Source: Comamonas terrigena NBRC 13299
GTDB taxonomy: Bacteria; Pseudomonadota; Gammaproteobacteria; Burkholderiales; Burkholderiaceae_C
Assembly: GCF_006740045.1 (NCBI RefSeq)
Contig: NZ_AP019749.1
Span: 4,235,001-4,299,000 of the forward strand
Direction of reading: 5' to 3'
DNA length: 64,000 nucleotides
This document shows positions 19,021-26,662 of the stretch, piece by piece. How positions within the stretch are numbered: the stretch's first letter is position 1; each line of letters begins with the position of its first letter. The position numbers and the translations under genes are program-made. The notes beneath the pieces were generated by a model. That model was given only the letters and a program-made list of their open reading frames with translations. It ran no database searches and was not told the origin of the DNA.

Positions 19021-19479
19021 CATGGCGCCCGTATTTACCGAGATGCCGGTCGGCACACCCGTTCCCAATAATCATTGGGATATTCAAGCAGGCATTATTT
19101 ATTTTCTTAAACCAGAATAATTAACCACCCATTAAGCATGCAATTTTTCTGAGAATATCGCTGTGCCAATCGATTTATTCTCGCGCCGACTGCCGATAAT
19201 CGGGTGCAATACACCTTCACTCTTCATAGCACGCCAAGCACAACCCTGTTGCATCCGCACTGAATCCGGCGCCTCCAGCGCGCCCTCCGCAGCCACCCAC
19301 AGCACACCCTGCCACTAGCACGGCGAGGTGTTCATGCCCTGGGTGGCTGATTTTCATGGCACGTGGAAAATGCATTATTTGGCTGATGCACATCAACGCA
19401 GCAGCGCATGATTTTATTTTTATGACATGCAGTGAAGGCAATATCACCCCACCACCTTATCCCGTGTGGAGAAAATGGC
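19021..19479 (+). promoter_or_regulatory. AT-rich upstream region of the pentahaem cytochrome gene
   Basis: This 460-base stretch has no supportable gene. Its first half (about 19060-19250) is far richer in A and T than the rest of the window and contains a dyad CCCAATAATCATTGGG (19064-19079, 6-base arms). Its second half carries an ANR/FNR-like site. AT-rich upstream DNA in this background suggests a strong or silenced promoter, or a recently acquired segment. Confidence 0.5.
19383..19396 (+). promoter_or_regulatory. Candidate ANR/FNR-type site of the cytochrome promoter
   Basis: CTGATGCACATCAA matches the FNR/ANR/DNR consensus TTGAT-N4-ATCAA at 9 of 10 defined bases. TATGAC at 19421-19426 can serve as a -10 box, which would place the centre of the site about 42 bases upstream of transcription start, the standard activator position. 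Suggests oxygen- or nitric-oxide-responsive expression. Similarity only. Confidence 0.5.
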
Positions 19480-21657
19480 ATGAAAATCATCTACAAATAT
19501 GGCCTTGTCCCCCTGGCCGCCGTGCTGGGCGTGTGCTGGCACCTGGCCACCGCCGCCGTGCAGGAGCACGCCCCGGCCCCTGCACCCCAGGTCATTGACG
19601 ACCTGCCCGCCGATTACGCCGCCGACCTGACGGCCGAGCAGCGCACCCTGGTGGAGCGTGGCCGCTATGTGGCCCGTCTGGGCGACTGCGTGGCCTGCCA
19701 CACCGGCAGCAAGACCGCCCCCATGGCCGGCGGCCTGGCGCTGGAGACGCCTTTCGGCAAGCTCTACTCCACCAACATCACGCCCGACAAGGCCACCGGC
19801 ATGGGCGGCTACAGCTTTGCGCAGTTCGATCGTGCCATGCGCAAGGGCGTGGCGGCCGACGGCCGCAACCTCTACCCGGCCATGCCCTACCCCTCCTACG
19901 CCAAGATGACGGAGGACGACATGCAGGCCCTGTATGCCTACCTGATGCAGGGCGTGACGCCGGTGCAGGCGGTCAACCAGCCATCGGAGATGGGCTTCCC
20001 CTTCAACCAGCGCTGGGGCCTGTCACTGTGGAACTGGCTGTTCCTGGACGACACCCCCTTCCAGCCCCAGGCCGGCCAGAGCGCCGAATGGAACCGCGGC
20101 GCCTACCTGGTGCAGGGCCTGGGCCACTGCGGCGCCTGCCACACCCCGCGCGGCATCGCCTTCCAGGAAAAGACCATGACAAGCGAAGGCCCGAACGGCC
20201 CGCTGTTCCTGGCCGGTGAAACCGTGGAAGGCTGGCGCGCACTGAGCCTGCGCGACCTGTGGACGCCCCAGGAAACGGCCGAGCTGCTGAAGACCGGGCG
20301 CAACCGCCATGGCTCGGTCTCCGGCAACATGGTGGACGTGGTGCAGCACAGCACCCAGTACATGAGCGACGGCGATCTGCTGGCCATCGGCACCTACCTC
20401 AAGGCCCTGCCGGCCGGCAAGAACGACCTGCCCATGCAGGTGACCCAGGGCCCGGCGCCGGTGATCGCCATTCCCGCACGCAGCGTGGGCAGCACCGAGG
20501 CGCTGGCCACCACGGCCGCCGCGCACTACAACGTGCCGGCCGACCTGTACCGCACCCGCGGTGGCCTGGGCTATCTGCAGTTCTGCGCGGACTGCCACCG
20601 CTCGGACGGAGCAGGTGTGGACGGCATCTTCCCGCCGCTGGCCGGCAACCGCTCGCTGCAGTCAGACAACGCCAGCACGCTGATCCACATCATGCTGACC
20701 GGCTGGACCACCCCCGTGACCCAGGCCCACAGCCGCCCGCTGACCATGCCGGCCTTCGCCCAGCTGGGCAACCAGGAGATTGCCGACATCCTGAACTTCA
20801 CCCGCCGCAACTGGGGCCGCAAGGATGCGCCCGAGGTCCAGGCCCGGGATGTGCAATCGCTGCGCAAGACGCTGGACGCCAAGGGCGAAAACAGCCGCCC
20901 CTTCGAAACCCCGCGCCTGGCCCGCATGCTGGACGAGAAGAATGCCGACCAGCTGGTCTATGGCGCGCGCCTGAACATCGAAACGCGGGACCTGCTGCCC
21001 AAGAACGTGGGCAATGCGCTGAACTGCGCCAGCTGCCACCTGAACGCAGGCACCGTGGCCGACGGCTCGCCCTACATCGGCATCTCGGCCTTCTTCCCCA
21101 GCTACGCGCCGCGCGCCGGCCGGGTGATCACGCTGGAAGACCGCATCAACGGCTGTTTCCTGCGTTCCATGAACGGCAAGCCGCTGCCGCTGGATTCGGA
21201 CGAGATGAAGGCCATGGTCGCGCTGTTCGACTGGATGCGCAACGAGACCAAGCCCGAAGACAAGGTCGAAGGCCGGGGCGTGGGCAAGATCAGCCAGCAG
21301 ATCATTCCGAATGCGGAAAACGGCAAGCAGATCTACACCCAGCAGTGCGCGCTGTGCCATGGCGCTGACGGCGAAGGCATCAAGAACGCCAAGGGCCAGT
21401 GGGTCTATCCGCCGCTGTGGGGCGATGAGTCCTTCAACATCGGCGCCGGTCTGGCCCGCACCTATACCGCCGCCGCCTTTGTGAAGCGCAACATGCCTAT
21501 CGCCTTCCACGGTAACTTCCCGCTGGGCCAGGGCGGCCTCTCCGACCAGGACGCCGTGGACGTGGCCGAGTACTTCAGCCACCAGCCGCGCCCGGACTTT
21601 GCACCCAAGCTCAAGGACTGGCCCAACGGCAAGAAACCTGCCGATGCACGGTACTGA
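19480..21657 (+). CDS. Pentahaem cytochrome c: tri-haem dehydrogenase-subunit module fused to a TsdA-like di-haem module, 725 aa
   Basis: Periplasmic or membrane-anchored electron carrier with five CxxCH haem sites: C70-H74, C217-H221, C369-H373, C516-H520, C623-H627. Residues about 1-26 form a signal/anchor. Residues 45-445 match the three-haem subunit of membrane alcohol, aldehyde and gluconate dehydrogenases (RGRYVARLGDCVACH, YSTNITPD, GHCGACHTPR, FCADCHRSDGAG). Residues 475-705 match thiosulfate dehydrogenase TsdA: LNCASCHLNAG, FFPSYAPRAGRVITLEDRINGCFLRSMNG with C559, the cysteine expected to ligate the active-site haem, and CALCHGADGEG with M672 45 residues after H627. No catalytic dehydrogenase gene is adjacent. 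Ribosome site GGAG eight bases before ATG. Thiosulfate oxidation/tetrathionate reduction coupled to the tri-haem relay is inferred. Confidence 0.9.
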   Translation: MKIIYKYGLVPLAAVLGVCWHLATAAVQEHAPAPAPQVIDDLPADYAADLTAEQRTLVERGRYVARLGDCVACHTGSKTAPMAGGLALETPFGKLYSTNITPDKATGMGGYSFAQFDRAMRKGVAADGRNLYPAMPYPSYAKMTEDDMQALYAYLMQGVTPVQAVNQPSEMGFPFNQRWGLSLWNWLFLDDTPFQPQAGQSAEWNRGAYLVQGLGHCGACHTPRGIAFQEKTMTSEGPNGPLFLAGETVEGWRALSLRDLWTPQETAELLKTGRNRHGSVSGNMVDVVQHSTQYMSDGDLLAIGTYLKALPAGKNDLPMQVTQGPAPVIAIPARSVGSTEALATTAAAHYNVPADLYRTRGGLGYLQFCADCHRSDGAGVDGIFPPLAGNRSLQSDNASTLIHIMLTGWTTPVTQAHSRPLTMPAFAQLGNQEIADILNFTRRNWGRKDAPEVQARDVQSLRKTLDAKGENSRPFETPRLARMLDEKNADQLVYGARLNIETRDLLPKNVGNALNCASCHLNAGTVADGSPYIGISAFFPSYAPRAGRVITLEDRINGCFLRSMNGKPLPLDSDEMKAMVALFDWMRNETKPEDKVEGRGVGKISQQIIPNAENGKQIYTQQCALCHGADGEGIKNAKGQWVYPPLWGDESFNIGAGLARTYTAAAFVKRNMPIAFHGNFPLGQGGLSDQDAVDVAEYFSHQPRPDFAPKLKDWPNGKKPADARY

Positions 21658-23790: not shown

Positions 23791-26271
23791 TTAGCCGCAG
23801 CTGCCCAGGTGACCGCAGGAGGTGCAGTACTCGCAGCCATCCTTGCGGATCATGGCATGGGCACCGCATTCGGGGCACTTCTTGCCGGCCATCAGCTGGG
23901 CGCCGGCCTTGTCACTGTGCTGCTCGTGCACGCTGGGGGTCACGGCTTCCTGCGCATCGGTCAGCGCCAGTTGCAGCTGCTCGGGCGAGCGGGCGCGCTC
24001 GGCCAGGATCTGCTGGATGGCGTAGGCGATGGCCGCCACTTCCGAGTCGTGCCACATGGGCACGCGGGCACCGTCGGGGCGCTCGAACGTGCCCAGACGC
24101 ACCGGGCCGCGATCCCAGACCACCTTGCGCATGTCTTCCAGCGCACGCTCCAGGAAACCGCCGCGTGCAGCCAGCGACAGCAGGCGCATGCTGGAGGTGA
24201 TCCACTGCTGCGATTCGCCGTTCTGGCCCACGGGCATGAAGAACTCGATGGCACGGTCCACAGTACCGCCTTCGGGGCGTTCCACGGGCAGGAAAGAGAC
24301 GATCAGGTACAGGCGCTTCTGGCCTTCCTGGGTCCAGTACTCGATCTTGTCAGTCACGGCCGACAGCGAACCCTTGGGACGGCTTTCGATCACCGTGCGC
24401 ATGGGGTCGACCACGGCCTGCACTTCTTCCTTGGCGGGAGCGGCAGCCGGCTTGGCTTCCTCCTTGGGCTTGGTGGTTTCCAGCACCGCACCCAGGATGG
24501 AGTTGGGACGGTAGGTGGCACAGCCCTTGAGGCCGGCTTTCCAGGCGCCCAGGTACAGGTTCTTGAAGTCCTCGAAGGGGTAGTCTTCGGGGATGTTCAC
24601 GGTCTTGGAGATCGAGGTGTCGATGAAGGGCTGCACCACCTGCATCATGGCGATGTGGTCGGCCGCGCTCATCTCCAGGGCCGAGACGAAGTACTCGGGC
24701 AGCTGGTTCACGTCACCGCCCATGGCCTTGTACAGGCGCCAGGCGTGGTCTTCCACCGTGTACTCGCTGGTGGAGCCGTCGGCCTCGCGCTTGCGGCGGG
24801 TGTAGGTCCAGGAGAACGGCGGCTCGATACCGTTGGAGGCATTGTCGGCAAAGGCCAGCGACACCGTGCCCGTGGGCGCGATGGACAGCAGGTGGCTGTT
24901 GCGGATGCCGTGCTTCTTGATGGCATCCTGCAGGGCCTTGGGCAGGCGGCTGGCGAACGTGCCGGCCTTCAGATAGCCCTTGGCGTCGAACTTGGGGAAC
25001 GCGCCCTTTTCCTTGGCCAGCTCCACCGAAGCGGCGTAGGCGGCGTTGCGCATCACTTCGGTGATGCGGGCGCCCATGTCGCGGCCTTCGGGGCTGTCAT
25101 AGCGCAGCTTCAGCATGCACAGGGTGTTGCCCATGCCGGTGAAGCCCACGCCGATGCGGCGCTTGGCCATGGCTTCGTCGCGCTGCTGGGGCAGCGGCCA
25201 GAAGGTGGCATCCAGCACGTTGTCCAGCATGCGCACTTCCGTCGCCACCACTTCTTCAAAGGCGGCGAAGTCGAACTCGGCCGTGCCGTGGATGCCGAAG
25301 GGGTTCTTGACGAAGCGCGTCAGGATGATGGGGCCCAGATCGCAGCAGCCGTAGGACGGCAGGGGCTGCTCGCCACAGGGATTGGTGGCATTGATGGTTT
25401 CGCAATACGACAGGTTGTTGTCGGTATTGATGTTGTCGATGAACAGGATGCCGGGTTCGGCGAAGTCGTAGGCCGACTTCATGATGCTGTCCCACATGGC
25501 GCGGGCCTTGACGGTCTTGTAGACCCACTGGCCGTCGGCACGCTGGTGGGCGCCCTTGGCGATCAGGCCGGCACCGGGCTTGGCGCCATGCACCAGTTCC
25601 CAGTCGGCGTCCTGTTCGACGGCCTGCATGAAGCCGCCGGTCACGCCCACGGACACGTTGAAGTTGTTCCAGCGGCCCGGGGTGCGCTTGGCCGTGATGA
25701 ATTCCTGCACATCGGGGTGGTCGATGCGCAGCACGCCCATCTGGGCTCCACGGCGGGCACCGGCCGACTCCACGGTGGAGCAGGACTGGTCGAACACATT
25801 GATGTAGCTGCAGGGGCCGGAAGCCATGGAGGCCGTGCCCTTCACCTCGGCACCACGGGGGCGGATGCGCGAGAAGTCATAGCCCACACCACCGCCGCGG
25901 CGCATGGTTTCGGCCGCTTCGCGCAGCGCTTCGTAGATGCCGGGGAAGCCTTCGTCGTCCACACCCTGGATGCAATCGCCCACGGGCTGCACGAAGCAGT
26001 TGATCAGCGTGGCCTGGATGTTGGTGCCCGCGGCACTCATGATGCGGCCGGCGCCGATGCCGCCGGCACGCAGGTTCTGCAGGAAACGGGCTTCCTGCGC
26101 GGCGCGCTGGTCTTCGTTCTCGACCGAGGCCAGCGAACGGGCCACACGGCGGAACAGGTCTTCCATGCCGGATTCACCGGCCTTGAGGTACTTTTCCTTC
26201 AGCACGTCCAGGCTGATGGGTTGTTCCGTCAAACCGTTTTGTGCAGCCACGTTCATGTCTTCGCGCTTCAT
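23791..26271 (-). CDS. nrdJ: Adenosylcobalamin-dependent (class II) ribonucleotide reductase, 826 aa
   Basis: Reduces ribonucleotides to deoxyribonucleotides with a radical generated from coenzyme B12, independent of oxygen. Sequence marks: N-terminal redox cysteine C92 in [27 protein letters not shown], the radical loop [18 protein letters not shown] with C299 and E301, the [12 protein letters not shown] region, and a C-terminal zinc-ribbon-like tail with paired cysteines ([21 protein letters not shown]) that probably reloads electrons. The ATG at 26271 is used; M6 at 26256 is an alternative. Single-gene operon with a strong terminator. I looked for a cobalamin riboswitch in the leader and saw none. 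Confidence 0.95.
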
Positions 26272-26662
26272 TGTTTTCCACACCCTTTAGGGGATCTGCA
26301 AGCCGGGGGGCCGCAGCCATTGCCAATCCAAAATAACCGTCAAATTCTGTCCATCATGCCCCAAGTTTTGGGCTCCTACATCTGCGAATCCATACAGGGC
26401 GCAGGGGCCGTTTCCGGTCGCCACGTACCATTTTTGCAACGCAGCGGCGCAGCCTGCTCACAGCGGAGCACGCGGGGCAAACAAGGGGGAATGAACGAGA
26501 AAAAGCCCTGCATCCGGCCTGCTGAAGGCAGCAGGGGGCAAGGCTTGAAATGAAGACGCTATTGTGCCGCTGTTTGACCTGCCGCGGGCCAGTGCCCCGG
26601 CATGTCCCGTGGAATGCGCGCGCATGTCGGCCGTCACATACGCGCGCCTCTTTTTCTGGTAT
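26272..26662 (-). promoter_or_regulatory. Leader and spacer between the GGDEF/EAL gene and nrdJ
   Basis: No gene is supported here. It holds the terminator of the upstream gene (26500-26539) and the nrdJ promoter region. GCCCCAAGTTTTGGGC (26358-26373) is a 12-of-16 symmetric site of the size of an NrdR box, upstream of a TTGACG (26338-26343, minus strand) that could be a -35 element. No second box at the usual 31-base spacing was found, so NrdR control is doubtful. Confidence 0.35.
26500..26539 (-). terminator. Terminator after the PAS/GGDEF/EAL gene
   Basis: Minus strand: outer arms GCCCCCTGC / GCAGGGC enclose an inner CTGCTG/CAGCAG hairpin, followed by five Ts. It lies about 120 bases after the stop of the gene it would serve. 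Confidence 0.5.

Follow-up and report, generated by a model that had tools for sequence, protein, structure and literature searches.

TsdA is a di-haem cytochrome c whose chemistry is described as proceeding through a cysteine S-thiosulfonate intermediate (PMC4423706); the thiosulfate/tetrathionate couple is given as +198 mV (PMC9562282). The ligands of haem 2 are described as Lys208/Met209 in TsdA from Allochromatium vinosum and as Met255, with Asn254 and Lys252 adjacent, in TsdA from Campylobacter jejuni, for which soluble cytochromes c are the presumed electron partners (PMC5146829). The three-haem subunit of alcohol dehydrogenase is reported to reduce ubiquinone (PMC9171043). Modules of these two kinds are joined in a single gene at 19480–21657 (forward strand) of a 64,000-nucleotide stretch of Comamonas terrigena NBRC 13299 (contig NZ_AP019749.1, positions 4,235,001 to 4,299,000), hereafter the window. 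The gene encodes a 725-residue five-haem cytochrome c, assigned from its open reading frame and from domain and structure-database matches, and the fusion is a conserved family in its own right; the best reading of the protein, held with about even confidence, is as a single-chain, quinol-linked, reversible, periplasmic five-haem tetrathionate reductase.

Architecture of the fusion and conservation of its haem ligands

Frame 1 of 19480–21657 is open for 725 residues and contains CxxCH motifs at residues 70, 217, 369, 516 and 623, exactly where a first-pass annotation made from the sequence had placed them, with Met672 lying 45 residues after His627 as it had counted; the cysteines outside these motifs are C19 and C559. 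All features of the protein lie on the forward strand. A hydrophobic stretch at the N-terminus (residues 1−26, 19480–19557), recognized by eye, is a putative signal peptide. The three-haem module (residues ~50−465, 19627–20874), which resembles the cytochrome subunit of alcohol, gluconate and fructose dehydrogenases, carries haem motifs C70VACH (19687–19701), C217GACH (20128–20142) and C369ADCH (20584–20598). The TsdA module (residues ~474−710, 20899–21609) carries C516ASCH (21025–21039), corresponding to the active-site haem 1 of TsdA, and C623ALCH (21346–21360), corresponding to the electron-transfer haem 2; between them lies C559 (21154–21156), and the haem 2 ligand region, K669-R-N671-M672, follows at 21484–21495.

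Pfam recognizes cytochrome c domains and SoxA/TsdA_cyt-c (E 4.8e-13, residues 515−582) in the protein, and an NCBIfam scan of it returns no model above its cut-off. When searched by sequence against solved structures, residues 53−464 match the cytochrome c subunit of a membrane alcohol dehydrogenase (8gy2_B, E 4.5e-95), with the corresponding subunits of glucose (8hdd_B) and fructose (7w2j_C) dehydrogenases matching similar residue ranges; residues 478−710 match A. vinosum TsdA (4wqc_A, E 1.4e-48), and TsdBA from Marichromatium purpuratum (5lo9_A) is matched more weakly. Structure comparison supports both folds, with the TsdA module 36−39% identical to A. vinosum TsdA. The N-terminal module features the three haem domains of the quinone-linked dehydrogenase cytochrome subunit and belongs to the same sequence family; the C-terminal module features the pair of SoxA/TsdA-type haem domains and, by position only, the Cys and Met ligands of TsdA. 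Both module assignments of the first-pass annotation are therefore upheld, as is its expectation that residues 470−725 would match TsdA.

C559 aligns with the TsdA cysteine, and K669-R-N671-M672 with the haem 2 ligand stretch; the placement of C559 and Met672 as haem ligands, already proposed from the sequence, is in agreement with these alignments. The haem 2 region displays the K-x-N-M pattern described for C. jejuni TsdA; the Asn-Met pair is also present in M. purpuratum TsdBA. All five haem motifs together with C559, K669, N671 and M672 are invariant in an alignment of 35 fusions, which comprises P0001, 28 of the 41 loci from a scan of genome contigs, one locus from a whole-genome search and five plasmid loci; of the 41, it omits five fused loci (for economy of rows), two truncated at contig ends, one containing unknown bases and the five two-gene loci. 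Among 49 distinct fused open reading frames the same residues are all kept: motifs 1, 2, 3 and 5 as well as the K, N and M in 49/49, and motif 4 and C559 (the latter as an alignment position) in 48/49, the remaining one, L041 from Burkholderia multivorans, having an assembly gap where haem 4 and C559 would be. The apparent loss of ~70 residues after residue 503 in L041 was considered as a deletion; it coincides with a short run of unknown bases and is an assembly gap rather than a demonstrated deletion. TsdA-type chemistry of the fusion is strongly implied.

The joining of a three-haem dehydrogenase-type module to a TsdA module is real, in its architecture as in its conservation. The fusion is not due to chance, because fused relatives are ~58−88% identical over nearly the whole length in many genera; a frameshift or a chimaeric assembly joining two genes is ruled out, as the same fusion recurs in independent genomes.

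Distribution, two-gene form and trees

The scan of genome contigs gave 41 loci, of which 36 are fused (contig ends truncate two of these, and one contains unknown bases) and 5 have two genes. In whole-genome searches a full-length fusion is present in 11 of 53 genomes of the genus, in 12 of 299 genomes drawn from the family and in 1 of 274 drawn from the class (E up to 1e-150 for the family and the class), that one being the window's own. Any match at all is found in 754 plasmid records; 11 of these cover at least 80% of the query, namely nine with the fusion, three of which are from Cupriavidus metallidurans, and two plasmids from Paracoccus that carry the two-gene form. Host genera of the fusion include Comamonas, Acidovorax, Delftia, Thauera, Herbaspirillum, Ralstonia, Cupriavidus and Pseudomonas. 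The distribution is patchy, as with a mobile trait, and covers both chromosomes and plasmids. On pMOL30 of C. metallidurans (L066) the fusion gene lies between an integrase (tyrosine recombinase) gene, which it follows, and a merT-like gene, close to the czc metal-resistance genes. Annotated plasmid records name the product merely "c-type cytochrome" or "cytochrome C", and searches of the full-text literature, limited in their coverage of full texts, found no description of a fusion of this kind.

The three-haem and TsdA-like proteins are also encoded by separate neighbouring genes in Achromobacter, Psychrobacter and the two Paracoccus plasmids (7 loci). In each of the three loci checked (L042, L045, L071, with starts as chosen) the second gene overlaps the end of the first by 4−8 bases, and the TsdA parts of two-gene loci are ~51−57% identical to the fused module. 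That one lineage has a gene pair where another has a fusion speaks for joint action of the two modules.

A tree of TsdA groups the 49 fused rows together (support 97) and, separately, the 7 two-gene rows (support 87), both apart from conventional TsdA; fused and two-gene rows together are separated from all 12 others with a support of 76. If the long-branched L086 and L087 are removed, the separation from the remaining TsdA has a support of 100, and the two-gene rows are nested inside the fused ones; either order, with fusion or with splitting as the later event, is compatible with these trees. A result that the three-haem modules of fused and two-gene loci do not form one clade (p 3e-50) was dropped, as it had treated L038, a fusion truncated at a contig end, as lying outside the group. 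Once L038 and the long-branched L078 are excluded, such a clade is neither shown nor rejected (approximately unbiased test, p-AU 0.208); the three-haem unit may have been recruited once or twice.

Proposed function, regulation and rival explanations

In the proposed mechanism, the C-terminal di-haem TsdA module would interconvert tetrathionate and thiosulfate at the cysteine-ligated haem, and the N-terminal three-haem module would replace the usual partner TsdB and link this active site to the quinone pool. Electrons could then pass from quinol to tetrathionate within one chain, either in anaerobic respiration or for disposal of reductant; a single-chain route through five haems is plausible, and electron flow from quinol to tetrathionate in the joined modules would be downhill. 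Alcohol dehydrogenase is also able to oxidise ubiquinol. We infer enzymatic activity, haem-to-haem transfer, quinol as the partner and the reductive direction; as to this direction, on which the first-pass annotation took no side, tetrathionate reduction is favoured because of the TtrSR-like neighbours in relatives, the FNR/ANR-like boxes and the redox potentials. In some lineages FNR/ANR may switch on expression when oxygen is absent, and in others expression may be under a TtrSR-like sensor. The more specific proposal of a molybdenum-free single-chain quinol:tetrathionate oxidoreductase, patchily distributed in Proteobacteria and controlled by FNR/ANR or a TtrSR-like sensor according to lineage, is put forward tentatively, at somewhat under even confidence.

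TtrSR-like two-component systems are found near 11 of 57 distinct loci, ten recognized by the sensor domain and the other being L008, where the sensor is cut by a contig end and the kinase part and regulator are present. Three annotated plasmids encode, after the fusion, a sensor kinase whose binding domain is PhnD-like, together with a response regulator. The system lies directly downstream on the same strand in Ideonella, Rhizobium, Thioclava and two family members, and downstream on the opposite strand in Acidovorax and Thauera; in Azospira (L028) it is ~6 kb upstream, far enough for other genes to fit in the gap, and so is near rather than adjacent. The kinases tested contain the PhnD-like sensor and HisKA in 3/3 cases, and HATPase in the two longer ones. 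Within the genus the sensor domain is present in 3 of 53 genomes, always beside a tsdA-family gene of another clade. These three loci (L086, L087, L088; the tsdA reading of L088 is incomplete) feature a distinct tsdA clade beside the TtrSR-like system, and no three-haem gene is seen in their 8−9 kb stretches.

FNR/ANR-like boxes were defined as matches to TTGATNNNNATCAA at no fewer than 9 of 10 places. The box before the window's fusion, CTGATGCACATCAA, is a pattern match at 19383–19396 (no strand assigned) with 9/10 specified bases; it starts 97 bases before the ATG and is one of two such sites in the window. A promoter scan found no sigma-70-like site. Such a box lies upstream of the fusion in 16/39 loci against 7/477 upstream regions of other open reading frames at the same loci; an earlier, cruder run gave 16/47 loci against 56/2000 random pieces. 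In a wider set the count is 21/57, or 21/55 once L035 and L046, which lack real upstream sequence, are removed. Several relatives in the genus keep the half-sites at 96−99 bases before the start, the middle four bases varying. The window's genome encodes a CRP/FNR-type protein (L129), whose N-terminal cysteine pattern we take to be that of FNR. Box and sensor are never found together: the box is present in 0/11 loci with a TtrSR-like sensor and in 21/44 others (Fisher p 0.004; raw table 0.009), p-values that are indicative given that the pattern was noticed post hoc, the loci are related and some flanks are ~1.5 kb; longer stretches of most loci with ~1.5 kb flanks contain no sensor. Control of either kind fits an anaerobic role.

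Several observations weigh against a tetrathionate reductase. At the 9-of-10 level 34 of 55 loci have no FNR/ANR-like box, including the Delftia-like L012–L014, and a TtrS-like sensor domain is absent from the genome to which the window belongs. The best NCBIfam match of the kinases is TtrS in 3/3 tested, at 325, 302 and 223 bits, all below the model's cut-off of 750 (the L009 kinase is a partial reading); the two response regulators tested score better with FixJ than with TtrR. The AlphaFold2 model of the protein is of middling confidence, with a mean predicted local distance difference test (pLDDT) score of 68.3. Since its Asn is also present in M. purpuratum TsdBA, the haem 2 pattern does not fix the direction of the reaction, and FNR-type control is no proof of reduction, as thiosulfate oxidation can be anaerobic too. 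TtrRS of Vibrio parahaemolyticus is described as controlling a tsdBA that oxidises thiosulfate (PMC11293645).

This last case speaks for the main rival, a thiosulfate dehydrogenase with a longer wire, from which electrons would pass to the quinone pool or to a soluble cytochrome c and then to an oxidase or denitrification enzymes; this is possible, though on balance doubtful. Several of the host genera are denitrifiers or sulfur oxidisers. TsdA is described as bidirectional (PMC6879331), and the TsdB part of TsdBA as the electron-accepting unit (PMC9774590). However, the window's genome already has a conventional tsdB-tsdA pair (L079:4902-6693, at about 2.259 Mb), and no SoxB was found in it, by a noisy search that gave below-cut-off signals in 10/14 control genomes; furthermore, FNR/ANR-like boxes stand before many fusions and before 0/9 conventional tsdBA pairs of the genus, including L079 (some tsdB starts being approximated). 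With the usual potential of ubiquinone, the transfer of electrons from thiosulfate to ubiquinone would be uphill by ~0.1 V.

The protein could instead have abandoned thiosulfate/tetrathionate chemistry for another sulfur oxyanion or thiol, such as sulfite or an organic thiosulfonate; the modest identity to A. vinosum TsdA and the position of the fused module apart from conventional TsdA in the tree point this way, but the TsdA ligand positions are kept and TtrSR-like sensors recur both near the fusion and beside another tsdA clade, which makes a change of substrate unlikely. Least probable, and to be thought of as hardly credible, is a three-haem module still serving an unlinked dehydrogenase with the TsdA module as an extra electron sink. 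The three-haem family normally serves dehydrogenases, and at three of four paralogous loci (L080, L081 and L083, not L082; GMC recognized by eye) a three-haem-type gene lies directly behind a GMC-like gene; one of the genome's three GMC matches is ~0.9 kb from a three-haem paralogue. However, these three matches are all elsewhere and no GMC dehydrogenase gene is present in the window, so that the first-pass annotation's remark that no partner dehydrogenase lies nearby holds for flavin-dependent GMC types, the pyrroloquinoline quinone and molybdenum types not having been searched for. Among relatives, genes for oxidases linked to flavin adenine dinucleotide (FAD) occur in 6/42 fusion neighbourhoods, not all neighbour clusters being annotated; these are confined to two genera, Thauera and Ralstonia, and are not of a kind known to use three-haem dehydrogenase cytochromes.

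Genomic surroundings and comparison with known systems

In the window the fusion gene is preceded by a gene for a TonB-dependent receptor and followed, on the other strand, by one for an AbrB-family protein; we know of no sulfur link for either. At 23791–26283 (reverse strand) lies a ribonucleotide reductase gene; its product is of the large-subunit barrel type, has a C-terminus resembling a zinc ribbon (the ending recognized by eye) and is perhaps of the vitamin B12 type. In relatives, the Thauera loci L023, L032 and L040 have FAD-linked oxidases of a type with iron-sulfur domains upstream of the fusion; those of the Ralstonia loci L018, L031 and L034 are downstream and ~27% identical to the Thauera type. 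In Azospira oryzae the fusion gene is closely followed by one for a second, conventional-looking TsdA (L028 10887–11873), which shares ~35% identity with the TsdA module of the fusion. In Herbaspirillum (L026, L027, L029, L033) a cytochrome b561 gene lies directly upstream on the same strand, a possible quinol donor, and in L026, L029 and L033 it is preceded by genes for an OmpR-type regulator and a sensor kinase. As a general quinol donor cytochrome b561 was rejected: it is seen before the fusion in Herbaspirillum only, and the four matches in the window's genome all lie outside the window.

The fusion is probably an unrecognised way of tetrathionate respiration that recurs in many soil and water bacteria. 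If so, many common heterotrophs would have an overlooked quinone-coupled route for this respiration, and the quinone-reactive three-haem unit would be a reusable electron module that is not tied to carbohydrate or alcohol oxidation; the protein would also allow the flow of electrons from quinol to a cysteine-ligated haem to be studied within a single chain.

The nearest precedent is M. purpuratum TsdBA (5lo9), which likewise has a C-terminal TsdA behind a multi-haem cytochrome, with the last haem domain before TsdA in a comparable place by structure comparison. The N-terminal part of TsdBA is a di-haem TsdB, whereas here it is of the three-haem dehydrogenase type, which brings the haems to five and presumably provides a link to quinone; only the last domain of the three-haem module overlays TsdB, so the TsdB di-haem half that defines TsdBA is absent. 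The view in the first-pass annotation that these modules are normally separate proteins requires amendment, a TsdA-TsdB fusion being known and the present fusion itself a conserved family. TsdA proteins from A. vinosum and C. jejuni share with the fusion the two haems, the cysteine of the active-site haem and the Met of haem 2, with K-x-N-M as in C. jejuni, but are separate di-haem proteins. Subunit II of the dehydrogenases (8gy2_B, 8hdd_B, 7w2j_C) has the same three-haem sequence and fold; it serves a sugar or alcohol dehydrogenase subunit, whereas here a TsdA module is fused at the C-terminus. In TtrABC with TtrSR, quinol-linked tetrathionate reduction is under the control of a tetrathionate-sensing two-component system, which is the role proposed for the fusion; however, TtrABC is described as a molybdenum/iron-sulfur enzyme with an integral membrane quinol-oxidising subunit, not a cytochrome (PMC9774590).
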